DNA of 64,000 nt from Lentzea alba (GTDB lineage: Bacteria; Actinomycetota; Actinomycetes; Mycobacteriales; Pseudonocardiaceae), in assembly GCF_011067745.1 (NCBI RefSeq), contig NZ_JAAMPJ010000004.1:496001-560000 (forward strand). The letters run 5' to 3'. The position numbers were made by a program, and so were the translations under genes. Of this stretch, positions 1-13,875 are shown piece by piece; position 1 is the stretch's first letter, and each line of letters opens with the position of its first letter. Under the pieces are notes generated by a model. That model searched no databases and was not told the DNA's origin. It saw only the letters and a program-made list of their open reading frames with translations.

Positions 1-1331
1 GCGTCAAGACCGAGATCAGGGAGAACCTCCTCGCGGCCCTGCGCGAAGGACGCAACCCGTGGCCCGGCATCGTCGGCTTCGACCGCACGGTGCTTCCTCA
101 GCTCGAACGCGCGCTGCTGGCCGGCCACGACGTGGTCCTGCTCGGCGAGCGCGGTCAGGGCAAGACGCGGCTTTTGCGCACGTTGGTGACGTTGCTGGAC
201 GAGTGGACGCCCGTGATCGAGGGCTCCGAGCTGGGCGAACACCCGCTCGACCCGATCACCCCGGAGTCCCGCCGGCGCGCGGCCGAGCTCGGCGACGACC
301 TGCCGGTCGTGTGGCGGCACCGCGACGAGCGCTACGCGGAGAAGCTCGCGACGCCCGACACGTCCGTCGGCGACCTGGTCGGCGACGTCGACCCGGTGAA
401 GGTCGCCGAGGGGCGTTCGCTCGGTGACCCGGAGACGATCCACTACGGCATGCTGCCGCGGGCGCATCGCGGCATCATCGCCATCAACGAACTGCCCGAC
501 CTGGCCGAACGCATCCAGGTCGCGCTGCTGAACGTCATGGAGGAGCGCGACATCCAGGTCCGCGGCTACACGCTGCGGCTGCCGCTGGACGTGCTGCTCG
601 TGGCGACCGCGAACCCGGAGGACTACACGAACCGCGGCCGCATCATCACGCCGCTCAAGGACCGCTTCGGCGCGGAGGTGCGCACGCACTACCCGTTGGA
701 GATCGACGCCGAGGTCGACCTGGTCCGCCAGGAAGCCGACCTCGTCGCCGAGGTGGGCGACCACCTGCTGGAGATCATCGCCCGGTTCGTCCGCCACCTG
801 CGGGAGTCCTCCTCGATCGACCAGCGTTCCGGAGTCTCCGCGCGGTTCGCCGTCGCGGCGGCGGAAACCGTTGCGGCGTCGGCACTGCGCCGGTCCGCGC
901 TGATCGGTGAGACCCCGGCGATCGCCCGTCCGATCGACCTGGAGTCAGTGCCGGACGTGCTGCGCGGCAAGCTCGAGTTCGAGGCGGGGGAGGAGGGGCG
1001 CGAGGACGAGGTGCTCGTGCACCTGCTGCGCCGCTCGATCGCCGACACCGCCCGTGCCCGCCTGGCGGGGTTGAACCTGAGGGCGCTGGCCGAGGTCGTC
1101 TCGGACGGTCACCCGGTCGCGACCGGTGACCGCGTGCACGCCGGTGACCTGCTGGCGGCCCTGCCGGAGCTGCCGATCCTGCACGAGGTGGCGGCACGGA
1201 TGGGCGCGGGCCCGAAGGACCCCGTCGGCCGCATCGCCTCCGCCGTGGAACTGGCCCTGGAGTCGCTCTACCTGACTCGCCACCTGTCGAAGGACACCTC
1301 CTCCGACGACGACCGATCGGTGTACGGATGA
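1..1331 (+). CDS. MoxR/ChlI-type AAA+ ATPase, 5' partial
   Basis: The frame is open to the first base of the window (codons from base 3), so the start lies upstream; a GTG at 90 is internal and would delete the conserved lead-in. Visible motifs are Walker A GERGQGKT (about 144-167), a Walker B-like stretch INELPDLAERIQVALLNVM, and a sensor segment ATANPEDYTNRGRIITPLKDR. This is the magnesium-chelatase subunit I / MoxR class. Such ATPases act as chaperones with a vWA partner, inserting metals or remodelling complexes. The stop overlaps the next start (ATGA at 1328-1331), and the next gene is the expected vWA partner, so the two are translationally coupled. Substrate unknown. No porphyrin genes are visible, so chelatase activity is not implied. 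Confidence 0.85.
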   Translation, partial: VKTEIRENLLAALREGRNPWPGIVGFDRTVLPQLERALLAGHDVVLLGERGQGKTRLLRTLVTLLDEWTPVIEGSELGEHPLDPITPESRRRAAELGDDLPVVWRHRDERYAEKLATPDTSVGDLVGDVDPVKVAEGRSLGDPETIHYGMLPRAHRGIIAINELPDLAERIQVALLNVMEERDIQVRGYTLRLPLDVLLVATANPEDYTNRGRIITPLKDRFGAEVRTHYPLEIDAEVDLVRQEADLVAEVGDHLLEIIARFVRHLRESSSIDQRSGVSARFAVAAAETVAASALRRSALIGETPAIARPIDLESVPDVLRGKLEFEAGEEGREDEVLVHLLRRSIADTARARLAGLNLRALAEVVSDGHPVATGDRVHAGDLLAALPELPILHEVAARMGAGPKDPVGRIASAVELALESLYLTRHLSKDTSSDDDRSVYG

Positions 1332-3256
1332 GGTATCGCTACGGACGCTGGGGAGGCGGCGCCGACCCGCTGGCGCCGCCGGTCGACCTCCGCGCGGCCG
1401 TCGACGAGCTCGGCCGCGAGATCATGGAAGGCGCGTCCCCGTCGTCCGCGTTGCGCGAGCTCCTGCGGCGCGGTGTGGACGGCACGCGGGGTCTGGACGA
1501 CCTGACCTCGCGGCTGTGGCAGCGCCGTGCGTCGATCCAGCGCCGGCACCGTCTGGACGGCACGCTGTCCGAGGTCCGCCAGCTGCTCGACAAGGCGGTC
1601 GAGGCCGAGCGCCGCGCGTTGTTCCCGGACCCGTCCGACGACGCGCGCTTCCGCGAGGCCCAGCTCGACGCCCTGCCGCCCGGTACCGCCGCGGCCGTGT
1701 CCGAGCTGTCCTCGTACGACTGGCGCTCCTCGGAGGCCCGCGAGGCGTTCGAACAGATCCGCGACCTGCTCGGCCGTGAACTGCTGGACCAGCGCTTCCA
1801 GGGCATGAAGGAAGCACTGTCCAACGTGGACTCCGAGGACGTGAAGCGCATCCAGCGCATGCTCCGCGACCTCAACTCGTTGCTGGAGGCGCACGCTTCG
1901 GGCTCCCCGGACACGCCGCGCCTGTTCGACGAGTTCATGCGCAAGCACGGCGAGTTCTTCCCGGAGAAGCCCCGCAACGTCGACGAGCTCATCGACGCCC
2001 TGGCCGCCCGTTCGGCCGCCGCGCAGCGCATGATGAACTCGATGACCGACGCCCAGCGCGCCGAGCTTTCGGCGCTGTCGCAACAGGCCTTCGGCGGAAT
2101 CGGCTCCCAGCTGTCCACTCTGGACTCGTTGCTGCAACAGCTGCGGCCGGGTGAGGACTGGACGTCCTCGGCTCGCTTCCGCGGCCAGGACCCGCTGGGG
2201 CTGGGCGAGGGCGCGCAGGCGATGGCGGACCTGGCCGAGTTGGACGGCCTGGCCGAGCAGCTGTCCCAGTCGTATCCGGGTGCGCGCCTGGAGGACATCG
2301 ACCTGGAGGCGCTGGAACGTCAGCTGGGCTCGTCGGCCTCCGTCGACGCCCGCCGGTTGGCGGAGCTGGAGAAGGCGCTGCGGCAGCAGAACATCCTGGA
2401 ACGCGCGCCGGACGGGTCGTTGCGGCTGACCCCGAAAGCGTTGCGGCGCATGGGAGAGACCGCTTTGCGCGGCGTCGTGGACCAGCTGCGGTCGTCGCAG
2501 GGCTCGCGCGACACCGTGTCCGCCGGCGCCGCGGGCGAGCTGATGGGGTCGACCCGGCCCTGGCAGTTCGGCGACACCGAACCCTGGGACGTGCCGCGCA
2601 CCCTGCGCAACTCCGTGCTGCGCTCCGGCTCGATGTCCCTGGACGTCGTTGATCTGGAGGTGTCGGAGACCGAACACCGAACGCGTGCGGCTGTCGCGTT
2701 GTGCGTGGACACTTCCTGGTCGATGGTGCAGGACGGCCGTTGGGTGCCGATGAAGCGCACGGCCTTGGCGCTGCATCACCTCGTGCGCACCCGTTTCCGC
2801 ACTGATGCGCTGCAGTTGGTGACGTTCGGGCGTTATGCCGAGGCCGTGGACATCGGCCAGCTGACGGCTCTTGAGGGTGTGTGGGAGCAGGGCACGAACC
2901 TGCACCACGCGTTGTTGCTGGCGGGGCGCCACGTCCGCCGCCATCCCGATGCTCAGCCCGTGGTGCTGGTGGTCACCGATGGTGAACCGACCGCGCACCT
3001 GGAACCTGACGGCGACGCGGAGTTCAACTACCCGCCGCTGCCGCGAACGCTGACCAAGACGCTGAACGAGGTCGACGCGCTGGCCCGGCTCGGTGCGACG
3101 ATCTCGGTGTTCAAGCTGGGGGACGATCCCCGGCTGGCGCAGTTCGTCGACATCGTGGCCCGGCGTGGTGGTGGGCGCGTGGTGTCGCCGGACGAGGAAG
3201 GGCTTGGTGCGGCCGTGGTCAGCGACTACCTGAAGTCACGGCGCAAGCGTCGGTGA
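1328..3256 (+). CDS. vWA domain protein, partner of the upstream ATPase
   Basis: 642 aa. The C-terminal third is a von Willebrand factor A domain with an intact MIDAS DTSWS (D461, S463, S465) and the later VVLVVTDGEP strand. The N-terminal 440 residues are largely helical, acidic and rich in Leu/Arg, with no motif I recognise. It resembles the uncharacterised actinobacterial vWA proteins (COG4867-like) encoded beside ChlI-like ATPases. MIDAS domains bind a metal ion and a protein ligand. By analogy with ChlI-ChlD and MoxR-vWA pairs, this protein would couple ATPase motion to a target. It overlaps the ATPase by 4 bp and is overlapped by the next GTG start, giving a three-gene operon. Confidence 0.85.
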   Translation: MRYRYGRWGGGADPLAPPVDLRAAVDELGREIMEGASPSSALRELLRRGVDGTRGLDDLTSRLWQRRASIQRRHRLDGTLSEVRQLLDKAVEAERRALFPDPSDDARFREAQLDALPPGTAAAVSELSSYDWRSSEAREAFEQIRDLLGRELLDQRFQGMKEALSNVDSEDVKRIQRMLRDLNSLLEAHASGSPDTPRLFDEFMRKHGEFFPEKPRNVDELIDALAARSAAAQRMMNSMTDAQRAELSALSQQAFGGIGSQLSTLDSLLQQLRPGEDWTSSARFRGQDPLGLGEGAQAMADLAELDGLAEQLSQSYPGARLEDIDLEALERQLGSSASVDARRLAELEKALRQQNILERAPDGSLRLTPKALRRMGETALRGVVDQLRSSQGSRDTVSAGAAGELMGSTRPWQFGDTEPWDVPRTLRNSVLRSGSMSLDVVDLEVSETEHRTRAAVALCVDTSWSMVQDGRWVPMKRTALALHHLVRTRFRTDALQLVTFGRYAEAVDIGQLTALEGVWEQGTNLHHALLLAGRHVRRHPDAQPVVLVVTDGEPTAHLEPDGDAEFNYPPLPRTLTKTLNEVDALARLGATISVFKLGDDPRLAQFVDIVARRGGGRVVSPDEEGLGAAVVSDYLKSRRKRR

Positions 3257-7439: not shown

Positions 7440-8765
7440 TCAGACCACGGGGCAATCCATGACGAGCACCGCGGAGGTCACCGGGACCACCGGAGCGCCG
7501 ACTGAAATGCCGCTGACCTGCACGTAGTACGCGCCGGGGGGCAATCCGCCGAATGTGATGTCCATGGTCTCGGAGATCGCCGGGCTGCGCGATTCGACCT
7601 GTTTGCCCTGCTCGTTCAGCAAGGCCACCTTCAACGCCCGCGGGGTGGTGTTCTTCAGCTCGACGGTGACCTCCAGATCCTCGCTGACCAACGCCAGGTC
7701 GGGCACGCTGACCTGCGGTTCCGTGGCCGTGACGTTCCGGGGGATGATCTCTTTGGCGGTCAGGAACGACTCGACGGCGTCCAGTACTGCCGCGTTGTCC
7801 TGCAACGACGTGTGCTGCTCCGTCACGCGGTGCAGCGTGTTCGACGACAACGCCAGACCCCGTCGAGCCGCACCCACAGCCGGAACCGTCGCATCGCCGT
7901 ACAGGTCGTTGCCCTCGTACGTCCGATAGCAGCTGACTTTGCCGTCGGCGATGCGTGCCGTGGTGGCCGTTGGCTGCTTACCGCCGAGGATCGCGTACGT
8001 GCGGTCGGCGAACGAGTCGGTCAACGCGCCGTGGAACGCCGCCGCGTCCTCCACCATCTTGGTGTTCAGCTCGGGCAACGTGGTCTCGGTCGTCTTGACC
8101 AGCCCGGACGGCGACTCGATGCACGCGTACTCGGGCAGCAGCTGGTGCAGCGACGGCATGGACCGGGCGAACTCGGTCAGGTCGACCGCCAACGGTCCGA
8201 GCCCCTTGCGCACGCCGTTGACCAGCTGTTCCAGTGCCGACGCCGCACCGCGGTACGGCGTGCCCATCGTGATCAGCTTGTCTGTCCGCTCGGCCATCCC
8301 GCACTGCTCGATGCACCACCGTGCGACCAGCCCGCCCATCGAGTGGCACACGAAGCTGACCTTGGCGTTCGGCCCGATCCGGTCCAACGCCTCGTCCACG
8401 CGTCGAGCCAGCAACGCGCCGTTGTAGCGGTTCGACAGCCGCCAGTCGTAGGCGAAGAGGATCAGGTTGCCCTTCTCGACGGTGTAGCCGAGCGAGTTCA
8501 TCCGCTTGGTCACCCGGTCGTAGCCCTTCAACGGTGACCAGATGCCGGGAATCACGTGCAGATCCGACATCAGCGCGACCGGCTCGATGCCGTCCTGAGG
8601 GTGTTCGTCACCGATGCCCGCCGGCAGCTTGAGCCGTTGCAGGCTGCGGCCCAGCGACAGGACAGCGCGCAGAGCGGCCTTGCCGGACACCTCCCAGACC
8701 ACGCCGTCCTTGTCGCGCAAGGTGCTGCCGAGAATGCCCGGCAGGACGACGACGAGATCACTCAT
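7440..8765 (-). CDS. LCAT-like alpha/beta-hydrolase (lipase/esterase)
   Basis: 441 aa. An oxyanion-hole region [11 protein letters not shown] opens the protein. The nucleophile elbow is CHSMGG with S142, followed by an acid in [11 protein letters not shown] (D291) and a His in RVTEQHTSL (H318), so the triad order of lecithin:cholesterol acyltransferase-type enzymes is complete. The last about 95 residues look like a beta-sandwich ([19 protein letters not shown], then [11 protein letters not shown]), perhaps a binding module. No signal peptide, so a cytosolic or inner-membrane-face lipid or acyl hydrolase is likely. It follows the caspase-ATPase-TPR gene on the same strand after a terminator-like hairpin. 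LCAT-like hydrolases are recurrent effector-type partners in such clusters. Membrane damage on activation is inference. Confidence 0.82.
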
Positions 8766-8997
8766 CAGGACTCCTTCGTCGATAGCCCTGCGGAGCAGGG
8801 CAAGAGGCGGGTGTTCGCACCGAGAGCGAGAAGCCGTCGGGTGTGCTCGGTTGGTCGGTTCGGGCGATGACCAAGCTGTGGATCGGTCTACCGCCGGGCT
8901 GGCGGGACGTGAAGTCTGTGGAGCTTGTGCAAGACCGATGGTCGGTACTCCGACCCTCGCCGTGAAAGCGGGTCGGCAACGAGTGGTGAAGCAGAAA

Positions 8998-9019
8998 ATT
9001 CACCCCATGAGGGGTGAAT
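8998..9019 (-). terminator. Hairpin after the caspase gene
   Basis: A perfect 9-bp inverted repeat (ATTCACCCC / GGGGTGAAT) with loop ATGA. Read on the minus strand it is followed by TTTTC, giving a short intrinsic terminator 25 nt past the caspase-ATPase stop. It may limit expression of the LCAT-like gene downstream. The remainder of the 279-nt gap shows no convincing gene. Confidence 0.6.
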
Positions 9020-9044
9020 CTCCTTGCAGCAGCTGGGAGAGAGG

Positions 9045-12000
9045 TCAACAGGACTCCTCAGCGAGTTTGCGGATGAGAGTGAGCAGCTTGAGGTTCGCGG
9101 GCACCAGATAGGTCAGCTCACGGATCCACGCCAGACGCTGGTTCGCGGCGGGCAACGCCAGACGTCCGTCACCGGCCCGAGCGCGCGCGACCACCTTGTA
9201 CAGCCCCGCCAGCGCGTGCGGCTCCAACGCCGTCACGGCCTGGGTGAGTGCCTGGGGTGACGCGCTCGCCGCCAGTGCGCGCAGGATCTCGGTGACCCGT
9301 GCGGGGTCTTCCAGCGCGTCCAGCACGAGGTCGACCACGTCGCTGTCCTCGTCGGCCAGCATGAGCAGCGCGTGCACGGGCTTGTTGTCGTGGATGTTGC
9401 GCAGGACTTCCTTGTCCAGCAGCTCTTCCCGGCGCGTCGCCAGCAGCTCGCGGCGGCGGGCGGGCGTGGCGTCGACGAACTCGTCCGCGAGGCTCGCGAG
9501 CAGCCACGGCCGGTACGCGAGCGGCACGCCCTGTTGCTGCGCGGTCGTCCGCCGCGACTGGAGGACCTGCGCCTCGATCAGGCTTGTGCCGTACAACGCC
9601 TCGGTGACCGCGACGTCCGCGTCCGTCGAGAGCAGCTCGGGGTGTTCGAGCAGGATTGCGCGTTCGTCGGCGTACGACCGTGCGAACACCCACCGCCGTG
9701 CGGTCTGCAAGAGCGTGCGGTCGACCGTCAGCCAGTCCGGTGAGGTGTCCCAAGGCCACGGACCCGAGTCGTAGTGACGGCGGGCGATGTCGTGCACGTC
9801 GTGGATCGCCTGGCGGGACTGCCCGACGTGGGTCAGCGCCTGGCACAACCACTTCGCGGCCGCCGGATCACCGGCCCTGGTGGCCGCCGCGCGCAGCATC
9901 AGCAGCGTCGCGAGGTGCGGGCCGGTGAACCGGGCGGTCACCCGTTCCCAGGTCTCGTCGACGATCTCGGGCTGCTTCAACCCCGCGCAGATGGTGTCGA
10001 GCGTGAACAACGCCGCCGCGAGCGTGGACAGCCGGTCGCTGTTCTCCAGGCAGACTTCGACGGTCCGCAGTCCGGTCGCCAACGCCTCGCGGGGCTTGTC
10101 CGCGTCGCGCTGGCGGCGCATGAGGTTGTGCAGCGCCTGGCTGTGCATCCGCAGCCCGTCCGCGAGGTCCGCCGCCTGGCGCGCGGTGTCGAGCGCCTCC
10201 GCCCGCAGGTTGATCGTGCTGTAGGCGACGCTCAGGCTCAGCGCGGCGTCGGCCAGCTGCGGGCGGAAGGCGGCGTGCCGGCCGAGCGTGCCGCTGATGT
10301 CGGCGGCCTGCTGGGTGATGCGGCCGGCCTCGGACAGCCTGCCCAGCGCGACGTAGTCGCGGCTCAGCTCGACCAACGCGCTGACCAGGTCCGCGAGGAA
10401 CACGGGGTTCGTCTGGGCCAACGAGTAGAAGAGCTCGACGGCCTGCTTGGAGCGTTGCATGGCCTCGTAACGCCGGCCGGTTTCGCTGCACCGGTTGGCA
10501 AGGCACGTCATCGCGCGCGCGAGCGGAGCATCTGTGTCAACGGCCGCTACGGCGTCACGAGCCGTGGACAACGCCTCATGCCGTCGTCCCAACATCGCGT
10601 AGACATCACTCAGATCCACCAGTGCACCACTGAGGTGTGCCGCGTACGTCGGGTTGTCACCGCCGTGCGTCGTCGTCTTCGCGATGCGTTGCGCAAGGCG
10701 TTTGTGCGTGAGGCTTTCTGCGGTCGTCGGGGTCGAGGCGACCAGCTCGCGATACCGCACCACGGCCTCTTCGGCGGGCGCGACGGCCTGCTGGAGCCGT
10801 CCGGCCTCGCGGAACCGCCGCCCGAGCAGGTTCTGCACGAAAGCCAGGTCCGCCAGGTACATCCGGGTCGTCGGCACGAGCGCGCGGAAGTGTTCGGCGG
10901 CCTCTTCCAACGGCGCGATGGCCTCGTCGCCGCGGCCCCAGTGCATCAGTTCGTTGGCCGCCGTCGTCGCCGCGAGTGCGATGTCCGGCAACAACATCCG
11001 GTTCATCCCCGCGAGCGCGCGCAACCCGTCCAACGCCCGCGTGCCCGCGTGCCCGCAGTGCCGCCACGCGTACTTCCACAGGTAGCCGGGCACGTTCGGG
11101 GGGACGCCCGCCTCCATCCGCTGCCGGTACAGCTCGATCAGCGCGCACGCCACCTTCTCGGCGTCCGGCGCGAACACCGCGTCCCGGCTCGGCGCGAACT
11201 GCGGACGCAGGTGGTCGGCGAACGTCTGGTGCGTCAGCTTGAAGACCGCCGTGCCTTCCTCACCGTCCTGCACGACGTGACGGCCCAGTTCGGTGAGCAC
11301 GGCCGTGATGTCGTCACGGCCGAACTCCTCGCCGGACAACGCCTCCGCCACCGCGATCCACTCGGCTTCCGGGAAGCCCGCGCCGTAGCTCCACGTCAGC
11401 GCGGTCAGCAGCGCACGCGCAGACGGTACCTTCGCGAGTTCACGGTCGAACGCCGCGTCCAGTGAGAGCTTCAGGTCCGCGCTGAAACTGTTCCCGGCGT
11501 CGGCCAGCACCTGATCGGTGATCATCCACGCGGTCAGGAACGGCAGCTTCGCCAGTTCGTCCACAGTGGACTGCGGAGCCTGGGGGCCCAGCCGTGCCAC
11601 CACGTAGTCGCGGACGTCCGCCTCGTTGTCGGCCTCGTCGAGGTTCAGCACCTCGACCGGCGACAGCTCGGTGAGCAGGGGAGCGCCACCCGCGACCCGG
11701 TGCGCCTGCCGGGTCGAGACGATCACGACGGCGTGGTTCGCGAGCTTGGTCAGCAGCGAGGTGGCGATCGAGAACGACTCGCCGCGGGCCTCGTCCAGGC
11801 CGTCGATCACGAGCACCGGCGGCGAGGTGAGCGTGCTGACGACACCGACGAGTTCGGCGGCGCCCCGACGGGGCCCGTCGGGTTCGGGGACGAGCCCGGC
11901 GCCCACGAGCTGGCGGCTGAGCAGGTCGGCCACCCGGTCGGCGTCCATCGCGCGGGCGTGCACGGCCGCGTCGACCGAGTCGGGGCCGGGGTCGGCGTGC

Positions 12001-12950
12001 CGGAACGACGGACCCGCGGTGAGCAGCAGGTCGCGTTCCGCCGGGTTGGACAGGCTCACCACCCGGCCGACGACCGCGGACTTGCCGGTGCCGGGCGAGC
12101 CCGTGACCACCCGCAGACCCGGCACGCCGGACTTGATCCAGCCGACCACGCGGTCCACCTGGGCGGTGCGGCCGGTGAACCACGAACGGTTGTCCGCCGA
12201 GTCACCACCGCGCGCGGCGAGCAAAAGATGCTTCACGACCGTGTTCGCCGCATAGAGCGGGTTGGGCAGCATCGGCTGTGCAGACCCGTACTGCATAAAG
12301 CGCGGCCGCTGCACATCGCTGTCCCACGTGTTCAGCAACGCCGTGCCGACCGCGCCACCGTCCACCAACGCCGTGCGGTCGCTCCACCGCCGTGCGTCCT
12401 CATCGGCCGTAGGCCCCGCACGCAGCAGCTTGCGGAGTTTCCCGCCGAACAGGCCGTCACGGGCCGTTTCGACGCTCGAACACGACACCAGCACGCCCGC
12501 CCAGTGCACCTGGCCGGCCAGCAGTTCCTCCTGCACGGCCGCGACCGTGCGGACGGCCTCGTCGAGCTGGGCGCCGGAGTAGCAGGCGTCGATGATGATG
12601 AGCACCTGATGGGCGCCCGACGCGGCACACCACAGCGCGAACTCGTGCAGCATGATGCCGTCGACCACGCCGTCGTTGTCCTTGGCCAGCAGCCTGAGGT
12701 TGTTCGCGACCGGGATCGCGTGCCCGCTCCACAACGCCACCAGAGCGCCGCCGTCCTGCGGCTGCGTGCGCAGCCCTTTCATGTGCGCGCGGACGTCGGC
12801 CTCGGTCGGGTCGGTCAGCGGGTCGCCCTCGTAGCCCTTGAGCAGGGCGCGCAGCTCCCGCACGTCGCTCACGGCGTGCTGCAGCGGCTGCACCAGCTCA
12901 TAGGAGCCGACGCCGATGCCGACGAACCTGCCTCTGACCCTTTCCTGCAT
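9045..12950 (-). CDS. Caspase-like peptidase / AAA-NACHT-type ATPase / TPR protein
   Basis: 1301 aa. N-terminal caspase-like (C14) domain, about 8-180, with the His in VALWSGHAIP (H77) and the Cys in IIIDACYSG (C123), so the dyad is intact. A STAND-type ATPase follows: Walker A GSPGTGKS (284-291) and Walker B VLVIDGLDEA (D383, E387), then a winged-helix-like stretch to about 600. TPR-like helices run about 650-1010 and a helical C-terminus follows. The organisation is peptidase effector, regulated NTPase switch and superstructure-forming sensor, as in the NTP-dependent bacterial conflict systems described by Aravind and colleagues. It lies between a slipin gene (58 nt upstream) and an LCAT-like esterase gene. 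The likely role is a threat-triggered protease. The trigger and substrates are unknown. The ATG at 12950 is followed directly by the caspase fold. Confidence 0.88.
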   Translation of the reverse strand: MQERVRGRFVGIGVGSYELVQPLQHAVSDVRELRALLKGYEGDPLTDPTEADVRAHMKGLRTQPQDGGALVALWSGHAIPVANNLRLLAKDNDGVVDGIMLHEFALWCAASGAHQVLIIIDACYSGAQLDEAVRTVAAVQEELLAGQVHWAGVLVSCSSVETARDGLFGGKLRKLLRAGPTADEDARRWSDRTALVDGGAVGTALLNTWDSDVQRPRFMQYGSAQPMLPNPLYAANTVVKHLLLAARGGDSADNRSWFTGRTAQVDRVVGWIKSGVPGLRVVTGSPGTGKSAVVGRVVSLSNPAERDLLLTAGPSFRHADPGPDSVDAAVHARAMDADRVADLLSRQLVGAGLVPEPDGPRRGAAELVGVVSTLTSPPVLVIDGLDEARGESFSIATSLLTKLANHAVVIVSTRQAHRVAGGAPLLTELSPVEVLNLDEADNEADVRDYVVARLGPQAPQSTVDELAKLPFLTAWMITDQVLADAGNSFSADLKLSLDAAFDRELAKVPSARALLTALTWSYGAGFPEAEWIAVAEALSGEEFGRDDITAVLTELGRHVVQDGEEGTAVFKLTHQTFADHLRPQFAPSRDAVFAPDAEKVACALIELYRQRMEAGVPPNVPGYLWKYAWRHCGHAGTRALDGLRALAGMNRMLLPDIALAATTAANELMHWGRGDEAIAPLEEAAEHFRALVPTTRMYLADLAFVQNLLGRRFREAGRLQQAVAPAEEAVVRYRELVASTPTTAESLTHKRLAQRIAKTTTHGGDNPTYAAHLSGALVDLSDVYAMLGRRHEALSTARDAVAAVDTDAPLARAMTCLANRCSETGRRYEAMQRSKQAVELFYSLAQTNPVFLADLVSALVELSRDYVALGRLSEAGRITQQAADISGTLGRHAAFRPQLADAALSLSVAYSTINLRAEALDTARQAADLADGLRMHSQALHNLMRRQRDADKPREALATGLRTVEVCLENSDRLSTLAAALFTLDTICAGLKQPEIVDETWERVTARFTGPHLATLLMLRAAATRAGDPAAAKWLCQALTHVGQSRQAIHDVHDIARRHYDSGPWPWDTSPDWLTVDRTLLQTARRWVFARSYADERAILLEHPELLSTDADVAVTEALYGTSLIEAQVLQSRRTTAQQQGVPLAYRPWLLASLADEFVDATPARRRELLATRREELLDKEVLRNIHDNKPVHALLMLADEDSDVVDLVLDALEDPARVTEILRALAASASPQALTQAVTALEPHALAGLYKVVARARAGDGRLALPAANQRLAWIRELTYLVPANLKLLTLIRKLAEESC

Positions 12951-12993
12951 GCGTCACTACCCCCTGCACACACGTCGTCCGGCGCAGATGGGC

Positions 12994-13008
12994 GTTACCT
13001 GGGGTAAC
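12994..13008. promoter_or_regulatory. Inverted repeat GTTACC-N3-GGTAAC
   Basis: A perfect 6-bp palindrome with 3-nt spacer, directly after the slipin stop and 44 nt before the caspase start. It could be an operator or a weak stem. CTGGGGTAACTC, which includes its right arm, recurs inside the slipin gene at 13111-13122. Confidence 0.3.
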
Positions 13009-13875
13009 TCACATGGGTGAATCCGGCGAATCACGCCGCGGTAATTCAGTCTGGGCCGAATCACCCTTGGCCGAATCACCCTGGGACGAATCACCCTTGG
13101 CTGAATCACTCTGGGGTAACTCGATGTTGGTGTTCTTCTCCAGGAACCTCAGCAGCTCCACCGGGAACGGCAGCACCAGCGTCGAGTTCTTCTCCGCCGC
13201 CACCTCCACGATCGTCTGCAGCAGCCGCAGCTGGAGCGCGCCGGGCGTGGCCTCCATCGTCCCGGCGGCCTCGGAGAGCTTCTTGGACGCCTGCAGCTCG
13301 CCGTCCGCGGTGATGATCCGGGCCCGGCGTTCGCGTTCGGCCTCCGCCTGCCGCGACATCGAGCGCTTCATGCTCTCCGGCAGCGCCACGTCCTTGATCT
13401 CGACCCGGTCGATGTCGATGCCCCACGCCAGCGCGGGGGTGTCGATCATCAGCTCCAGGCCCTGGTTGAGGTGCTCCCGGTTGGACAGCAGGTCGTCGAG
13501 CTCGCTCTTGCCGATGATCGACCGCAACGACGTCTGCGCCACCTGCAGCATCGCGAACCGGTAGTCCTCGACGTTGATGACGGCCTTCGCCGGGTCCTGC
13601 ACCTTGAAGTACACGACGGCGTCCACGCGCACGGTGACGTTGTCGCGCGTGATGCCGTCCTGCGCCGGCACGGGCAGGGTGACGATCTGCAGGTTGACCT
13701 TCCGGAGCTGGTCGACCCCGGGGATCAGCATCGTCAGCCCCGGCCCGCGCACGCCCTGCTGGAGCTTGCCGAACCGGAACACCAGTCCCTGTTCGAACTG
13801 TTTGATCACTCTGGCGCTCATGGCGAGGCTCAGGCCTCCGAGCGCGACCAGTCCGCCGAGGATTTCTACGATCAT
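13009..13875 (-). CDS. Slipin / SPFH (band 7) membrane protein
   Basis: 288 aa. One N-terminal membrane segment (MIVEILGGLVALGGLSLAMS) is followed by the stomatin/slipin signature FEQGLVFRFGKLQQGVRGPG and the PAQDGITRDNVTVRVDAVVYFKV core. A helical tail with AEAERERRARIITADGELQA is typical of oligomerising SPFH proteins. These scaffold lipid microdomains. The C-terminus beyond about residue 250 is a low-complexity run of GDSAK/GDSSQ-type pentapeptides encoded by 15-nt repeats, unlike ordinary slipins. Same strand as the caspase gene and 58 nt upstream of it, so co-transcription is likely. It could anchor the caspase-esterase module at the membrane (inference). Confidence 0.9.
   Translation of the reverse strand: MIVEILGGLVALGGLSLAMSARVIKQFEQGLVFRFGKLQQGVRGPGLTMLIPGVDQLRKVNLQIVTLPVPAQDGITRDNVTVRVDAVVYFKVQDPAKAVINVEDYRFAMLQVAQTSLRSIIGKSELDDLLSNREHLNQGLELMIDTPALAWGIDIDRVEIKDVALPESMKRSMSRQAEAERERRARIITADGELQASKKLSEAAGTMEATPGALQLRLLQTIVEVAAEKNSTLVLPFPVELLRFLEKNTNIELPQSDSAKGDSSQGDSAKGDSAQTELPRRDSPDSPM
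13028..13117. repeat. Six 15-nt tandem units in the slipin 3' end
   Basis: Units begin at 13028, 13043, 13058, 13073, 13088 and 13103, with a consensus like GAATCACCCTTGGCC. The four central ones are nearly identical. Read on the minus strand they encode a repeating five-residue GDSAK/GDSSQ motif. Copy number is likely to vary between strains. Confidence 0.85.

Follow-up and report, generated by a model that had tools for sequence, protein, structure and literature searches.

A caspase-fold protease and an LCAT-like hydrolase inherited together in Lentzea: a candidate two-gene switch

In the soil bacterium Lentzea alba, a gene for a caspase-fold protease with a STAND-type NTPase and TPR-like repeats (CASP) is followed by a gene for a lipase-like alpha/beta hydrolase (LCAT). 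As judged from the genomes compared, the two genes are inherited together, and we propose that they form a two-gene, cytosolic caspase-lipase switch, a reading to which we assign a probability of about 0.6. The pair lies in a 64,000-nucleotide stretch (hereafter, the window; contig NZ_JAAMPJ010000004.1, positions 496,001 to 560,000) of a 10.2-Mb genome. The order of transcription on the minus strand is beta-galactosidase (18327-13948), slipin (13875-13009), CASP (12950-9045), LCAT (8765-7440), and ctaD (7402-5639). A preliminary description of this DNA had recognized the slipin, CASP, and LCAT as three consecutive same-strand genes, which was confirmed, and the motifs that it named in CASP and LCAT (i.e., dyad, P-loop, and triad) were all correct when the sequence was rechecked. 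The features of the locus are as follows.

7440..8765, minus strand: LCAT-like alpha/beta hydrolase of 441 aa, with triad S142-D291-H318 and no apparent signal peptide
7443..7730, minus strand: LCAT C-terminal beta domain (residues ~346-441), faster-evolving
7737..7739, minus strand: R343 codon; the residue lies in the LCAT linker that joins the catalytic and C-terminal beta domains and is a candidate caspase site
8766..9058, minus strand: insertion between CASP and LCAT, particular to the window strain and flanked by a 10-bp direct repeat (8766-8775 and 9049-9058)
9045..12950, minus strand: CASP (1301 aa), a caspase-fold protease that also has a STAND-type NTPase and TPR-like repeats
9981..11060, minus strand: TPR-like repeat region of CASP (residues ~631-990, approximate limits), with four stretches matching TPR_12 below the Pfam cut-off
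11571..12230, minus strand: NTPase domain of CASP (residues ~241-460), with P-loop 284-291
12231..12950, minus strand: caspase domain of CASP (residues ~1-240), with dyad H77/C123
12991..13012, minus strand: inverted repeat GTGAGTTACCCCAGGTAACGCC, conserved ahead of CASP; candidate operator
13009..13875, minus strand: slipin (Band_7), judged to be a neighbor rather than a component

CASP begins with a caspase domain (residues ~1-240) and a STAND-like NTPase (~241-460), after which come a linker, the TPR-like repeats, and a C-terminal region. Its identification as a caspase rests on PADLOC (whose match covers the caspase domain only), on a subthreshold match to NCBIfam NF047832 (EACC1-associated caspase; 5.4e-7, far below the family cut-off), and on fold comparison, and Pfam gives no such label. 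Its caspase fold with a His-Cys dyad places CASP among the caspases (clan CD, C14-like), and the active-site residues are invariant in all 25 aligned sequences, in which the P-loop is also conserved. For the NTPase and the repeats, the Pfam profiles AAA_16 (1.6e-7) and TPR_12 fell just under and below their cut-offs, respectively, and NPHP3_N (3.7e-6) was above; TPR_12 exceeded its cut-off in the copy of CASP at locus L017. A PDB sequence search with CASP returned nothing at E<=0.1, and the structure model of the caspase domain was weak (pLDDT 57). On these assignments, CASP is a caspase-fold protease whose dyad is intact, combined with a probable STAND-type NTPase and TPR-like repeats.

LCAT matches PF02450 at 3e-14, above the cut-off, and shows profile similarity to group XV phospholipase A2 (2.7e-7) and, more weakly, to LCAT proper. 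The Ser-Asp-His triad is kept in 33/33 aligned LCAT sequences (an alignment that excluded G107, G131, G042, and the first G027 match), and profile and triad together assign the protein to the LCAT/phospholipase alpha/beta hydrolases. The N-terminus opens directly on the first strand, so that no signal peptide is apparent, and the maximum 19-residue hydropathy values (1.6 for CASP and 1.8 for LCAT) indicate no clear membrane segment in either protein. By these features, LCAT is a cytosolic lipase-like hydrolase with an intact triad. Its structure model was too poor for a structure search (pLDDT 42).

The link between the two genes was assessed in 19 named loci from other genomes (L002-L016 and L018-L021); 18 carry the label Lentzea, and the other, labeled Nocardia sp. 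NRRL S-836, was grouped with Lentzea by the search tool. In all 19, the LCAT start meets the CASP stop, abutting in 10 loci and overlapping by 1 nt in 8 and by 4 nt in 1. The window is the exception, with a 279-nt gap arising from an insertion flanked by the 10-bp direct repeat. This insertion of ~280 nt (8766-9058) contains a palindrome and is absent from 19/19 named loci; the idea that it is a multicopy element was rejected, as its own genome holds no second copy. Both genes are present at this locus in 22/24 Lentzea genomes (the raw tally for CASP was 23/24, including a match in G164 [2e-5, TPR region] that was discounted as another gene), with CASP split by a frameshift near residue 353 in G155 and spread over two contigs in G156. 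In G051, CASP and LCAT up to residue ~348 are deleted and a beta-domain stub remains beside the slipin; in G164, both genes are lost and the last few LCAT codons remain before ctaD. Because the scars differ and the ctaD tree places the two genomes on separate branches, we read the losses as two independent co-deletions. The remnant in G051 (locus L114, 2233-2553) holds the C-terminal beta domain only, as an open 106-aa frame that overlaps the end of the slipin gene. Since CASP and LCAT are kept and lost together, they are probably partners in a self-destruct circuit, a type of system that had been predicted for filamentous bacteria before.

A second full-length CASP, 77 to 82% identical, occurs in L. 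kentuckyensis (L017, genome G158), L. waywayandensis (L022, genome G166), and genome G155 (L181), where it forms the C-terminal part of an open frame of 1828 to 1834 residues, behind a vWA region. Over its first 460 residues, each of the two proteins tested (L017 and L181) matches NF041121 at 1.1e-96, and all three carry a DxSxS motif, which we take to be the vWA MIDAS. Upstream, the order in all three loci is LCAT-like, VMAP, MoxR, and vWA-CASP; the L017 VMAP matches Pfam VMAP-M2 at 2.8e-14 and has a weakly transglutaminase-like N-terminus (E 0.009). The VMAP-MoxR-vWA order set out by Kaur et al. 2020 (PMC7159879) is thus found in these relatives, and none of these three genes was matched next to CASP-LCAT in the window. 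The window does have the other trait of VMAP systems, namely, a caspase domain with a neighboring alpha/beta-hydrolase gene, which according to the same paper always accompanies the caspase domain in VMAP proteins. The caspase-esterase pairing is largely anticipated in print, and, as far as gene content and order can tell, the window pair is a free-standing, near genus-wide relative of the caspase and alpha/beta-hydrolase components found in VMAP-MoxR-vWA systems. The LCAT of the VMAP operons is only ~31% identical to that of the window, versus 77 to 82% for CASP, which indicates that CASP does not depend on a single LCAT partner. A related LCAT-VMAP-MoxR-vWA set occurs at L187 (G161). A chelatase-like AAA and vWA gene pair also lies in the window (90-3256), beyond ctaD and on the strand opposite to CASP-LCAT; it was considered as the missing MoxR/vWA genes and rejected, its best NCBIfam matches being chelatase families, all below cut-off. 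In another genus (G029), the same pair adjoins a slipin orthologue.

Outside Lentzea, CASP and LCAT lie side by side in G089 and G098, which belong to two further genera, and a FastTree phylogeny placed the fused CASP copies, on long branches, between these and the free-standing Lentzea clade. In the larger family sample, 2/143 genomes from outside Lentzea had CASP at E<1e-100, by a search that scored four candidates per genome and so may miss weaker relatives. LCAT-like matches outside the genus (E<=1e-17) lie beside a caspase (10) or CHAT protease (3; G147, G093, and G080) gene in 13 of 15 cases, where a caspase domain was called by HMM at E<0.1 and three of the 10 calls are weak (0.018, 0.075, and 0.085). 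Neither gene was found in the other two regions (G016 and G042); G016 has instead a STAND-like protein whose N-terminus resembles that of the L017 VMAP (35%, 1.5e-11). Several of the caspase-STAND proteins near these LCATs end in WD40 propellers at the position of the CASP TPRs. Within Lentzea, a caspase domain lies near 6/7 further LCAT genes, the exception being G156:C444. The nearest equivalent of a control for this co-location is the set of slipin loci outside the genus, where CASP or LCAT is nearby in 0/27.

In the mechanism that we propose, the TPR part of CASP would sense a ligand or damage signal, and nucleotide-dependent assembly of the STAND domain would activate the caspase. The caspase would then unleash the latent LCAT-like hydrolase, perhaps by cleaving it at the linker residue R343, and the released enzyme would attack the cell's own membrane lipids, leading to death or arrest. 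R343 is Arg in the window and in 19/19 named LCAT orthologues and is basic in G089 and G098, and it is not conserved in VMAP-type LCATs or in several other LCATs outside the closest relatives. Arginine or lysine is often preferred by prokaryotic relatives of caspases. Alpha/beta-hydrolases are named as hydrolyzing membrane lipids by Kaur et al. 2021 (PMC8195603), and lipid damage and death as the predicted outcome of CASP-LCAT has, in our estimate, about an even chance of being right. The predicted cleavage of LCAT by CASP is unlikely, if well short of negligible. Less likely again is the full execution pathway, in which a STAND-TPR caspase would cut latent LCAT at R343, the lipase would be freed from its beta domain, and the membrane would be destroyed; CASP-LCAT would then be a lipid-directed counterpart of canu, detached from or captured by a VMAP-type system and present as a near genus-wide Lentzea trait.

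Two alternatives to the switch, or to its use in defense, carry real weight. In the first, which we regard as a serious minority view, the two enzymes work alongside each other, with the caspase cutting another protein and LCAT regulated by CASP binding or coexpression rather than by proteolysis. The association of CASP with a 31%-identical LCAT in the VMAP operons and the clade restriction of the linker arginine favor this idea, as does the proposal of Kaur et al., as recounted in PMC10907252, in which the target of the VMAP peptidase is the vWA protein and not a hydrolase. However, the start/stop coupling and the co-deletions suggest a tight joint function, and protease-proenzyme pairs have a tested precedent, the closest being canu, in which a linked pro-nuclease was shown experimentally to be activated by the caspase (PMC12799240).

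The second alternative, which we hold to be of similar standing, is that CASP-LCAT serves a domesticated endogenous program (developmental hyphal lysis, stress death, or nonlethal lipid remodeling) and not phage defense. The pair occupies a fixed locus between housekeeping-type genes in 22/24 Lentzea genomes, near genus-wide, and no defense island is visible there. Mean pairwise dN/dS, calculated from 17 sequences (12 for beta-galactosidase) with L006, L008, L012, and paralogous loci excluded, was 0.20 for CASP, 0.20 for LCAT, 0.14 for the slipin, 0.13 for ctaD, and 0.23 for beta-galactosidase. Within CASP, the value was 0.185 for the TPR part versus 0.246 for the caspase part, and within LCAT, it was 0.35 for the C-terminal domain versus 0.16 for the catalytic part. 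By this measure, the CASP and LCAT active sites are under purifying selection and the CASP TPR region evolves no faster than the rest, unlike an arms-race sensor; a sensor region under purifying selection agrees with an endogenous role. So does the conserved upstream element, an inverted repeat (TGAGTTA, 5-6 nt, TAAC) that begins 60 to 62 nt before the CASP start codon in 20/21 Lentzea loci, including the slipin-less locus (L006 is without it), and suggests that CASP-LCAT has its own control element. The repeat as the mark of a regulon was rejected (1 genome match at <=2 mismatches versus 2 for a reversed-pattern control). Against an endogenous program stand the outright loss of the pair in 2/24 Lentzea genomes, the patchiness of homologues outside the genus (the 2/143 genomes noted above, with four candidates scored in each), the location of relatives in predicted conflict systems, and one apparent allelic replacement. 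The last is seen against L. kentuckyensis (L013), the nearest relative of the window strain. The flanking genes of the two strains are 95.5% identical; across CASP residues ~1-1040 (window ~9830-12830), DNA identity is 82 to 86%, versus 94.6% for the remainder, and CASP of this pair of strains is the strongest outlier among 190 pairs (-4.8 SD). We interpret this single case as an apparent allelic replacement.

The slipin that adjoins the caspase-lipase pair is an ordinary Band_7 member (stomatin match, 1.9e-62) with a hydrophobic stretch at its N-terminus. A 15-bp tandem repeat in the DNA (window 13051-13115) gives rise to its C-terminal tail, and slipin length varies between species. The preliminary description had made the slipin part of a three-gene module and named the slipin link as its new element. 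The gene lies directly upstream of CASP on the same strand in 18/19 named loci and occurs at high similarity in 23/24 Lentzea genomes; however, it is separable from the pair in three of these, in both directions, being absent from G105 (L. fradiae, locus L012), where CASP and LCAT are kept, and retained in G051 and G164, where the pair is gone. A slipin orthologue (E<=1e-90) occurs in 43 genomes of a 60-genome family sample, including 40/57 non-Lentzea genomes; CASP, LCAT, or ctaD lies within 1.5 kb of it in 0/27 non-Lentzea slipin loci, and none was present in 12/12 wider regions from the 40 genomes (~9-kb flanks). Conversely, a slipin was found in 0/25 regions that hold a VMAP-fused CASP, a pair from another genus, or another LCAT-like gene (two loci were fetched twice and account for four of these regions). 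Relatives with the pair and no slipin, and slipin orthologues without CASP or LCAT, thus both exist, and the slipin link does not hold. Although a Band_7 protein is plausible as a membrane scaffold, these separations make it very improbable that the slipin anchors the switch to membrane microdomains as part of a three-gene module. We consider it highly probable that the slipin is a neighbor and not a component and, jointly, that CASP and LCAT belong to the families given above. The caspase-esterase half of the earlier module stands on the coupling in 19/19 loci, the two co-deletions, and the cross-genus co-location; comparison across Lentzea and the wider genome sample upheld the co-occurrence of caspase-TPR and LCAT genes and not that of the slipin with them. 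A literature search, which reached few subscription papers, found no slipin-caspase module, free-standing caspase/LCAT pair, or description of this Lentzea locus.

Pairs of a caspase and an alpha/beta-hydrolase have previously been predicted by comparative genomics to work together, inside larger multigene systems. A two-gene, translationally coupled, and near genus-wide pair offers a minimal test case for the idea that a bacterial caspase switches on a membrane lipase. Strains in which both genes were naturally deleted, and the near-identical caspase of the VMAP operons, are ready comparisons.

Among known systems, the window pair resembles the VMAP systems (as set out in PMC7159879) in having a caspase and an adjoining alpha/beta-hydrolase gene, together with probable STAND NTPase and TPR effector parts. 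Unlike them, it has no VMAP, VMAP-type MoxR, or vWA fusion and consists of two coupled genes at a fixed locus; the L017 relative differs from the caspase-bearing VMAP proteins described there in that its caspase is on the vWA protein. With canu (PMC12799240), CASP-LCAT shares a caspase and a hydrolytic effector, possibly a proenzyme, and TPRs occur in canu loci; the canu effector, in contrast, is a metallo-beta-lactamase-type nuclease whose activation was demonstrated in experiments, and activation of LCAT is a prediction. Weak caspase-domain similarity links CASP to the two-gene systems of EACC1-associated caspases (NF047832; outlined in Kaur et al. 2020), from which it differs in that its 5' neighbor is a Band_7 slipin and no EACC1 gene was recognized beside it. 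The slipin is an ordinary member of the slipin/stomatin family, not linked to CASP-LCAT by inheritance. LCAT is like the lysosomal phospholipase A2 (group XV)/LCAT family in its PF02450 match, profile similarity, and intact Ser-Asp-His triad, and unlike it in the apparent lack of a signal peptide, an added C-terminal beta domain, and a caspase partner.
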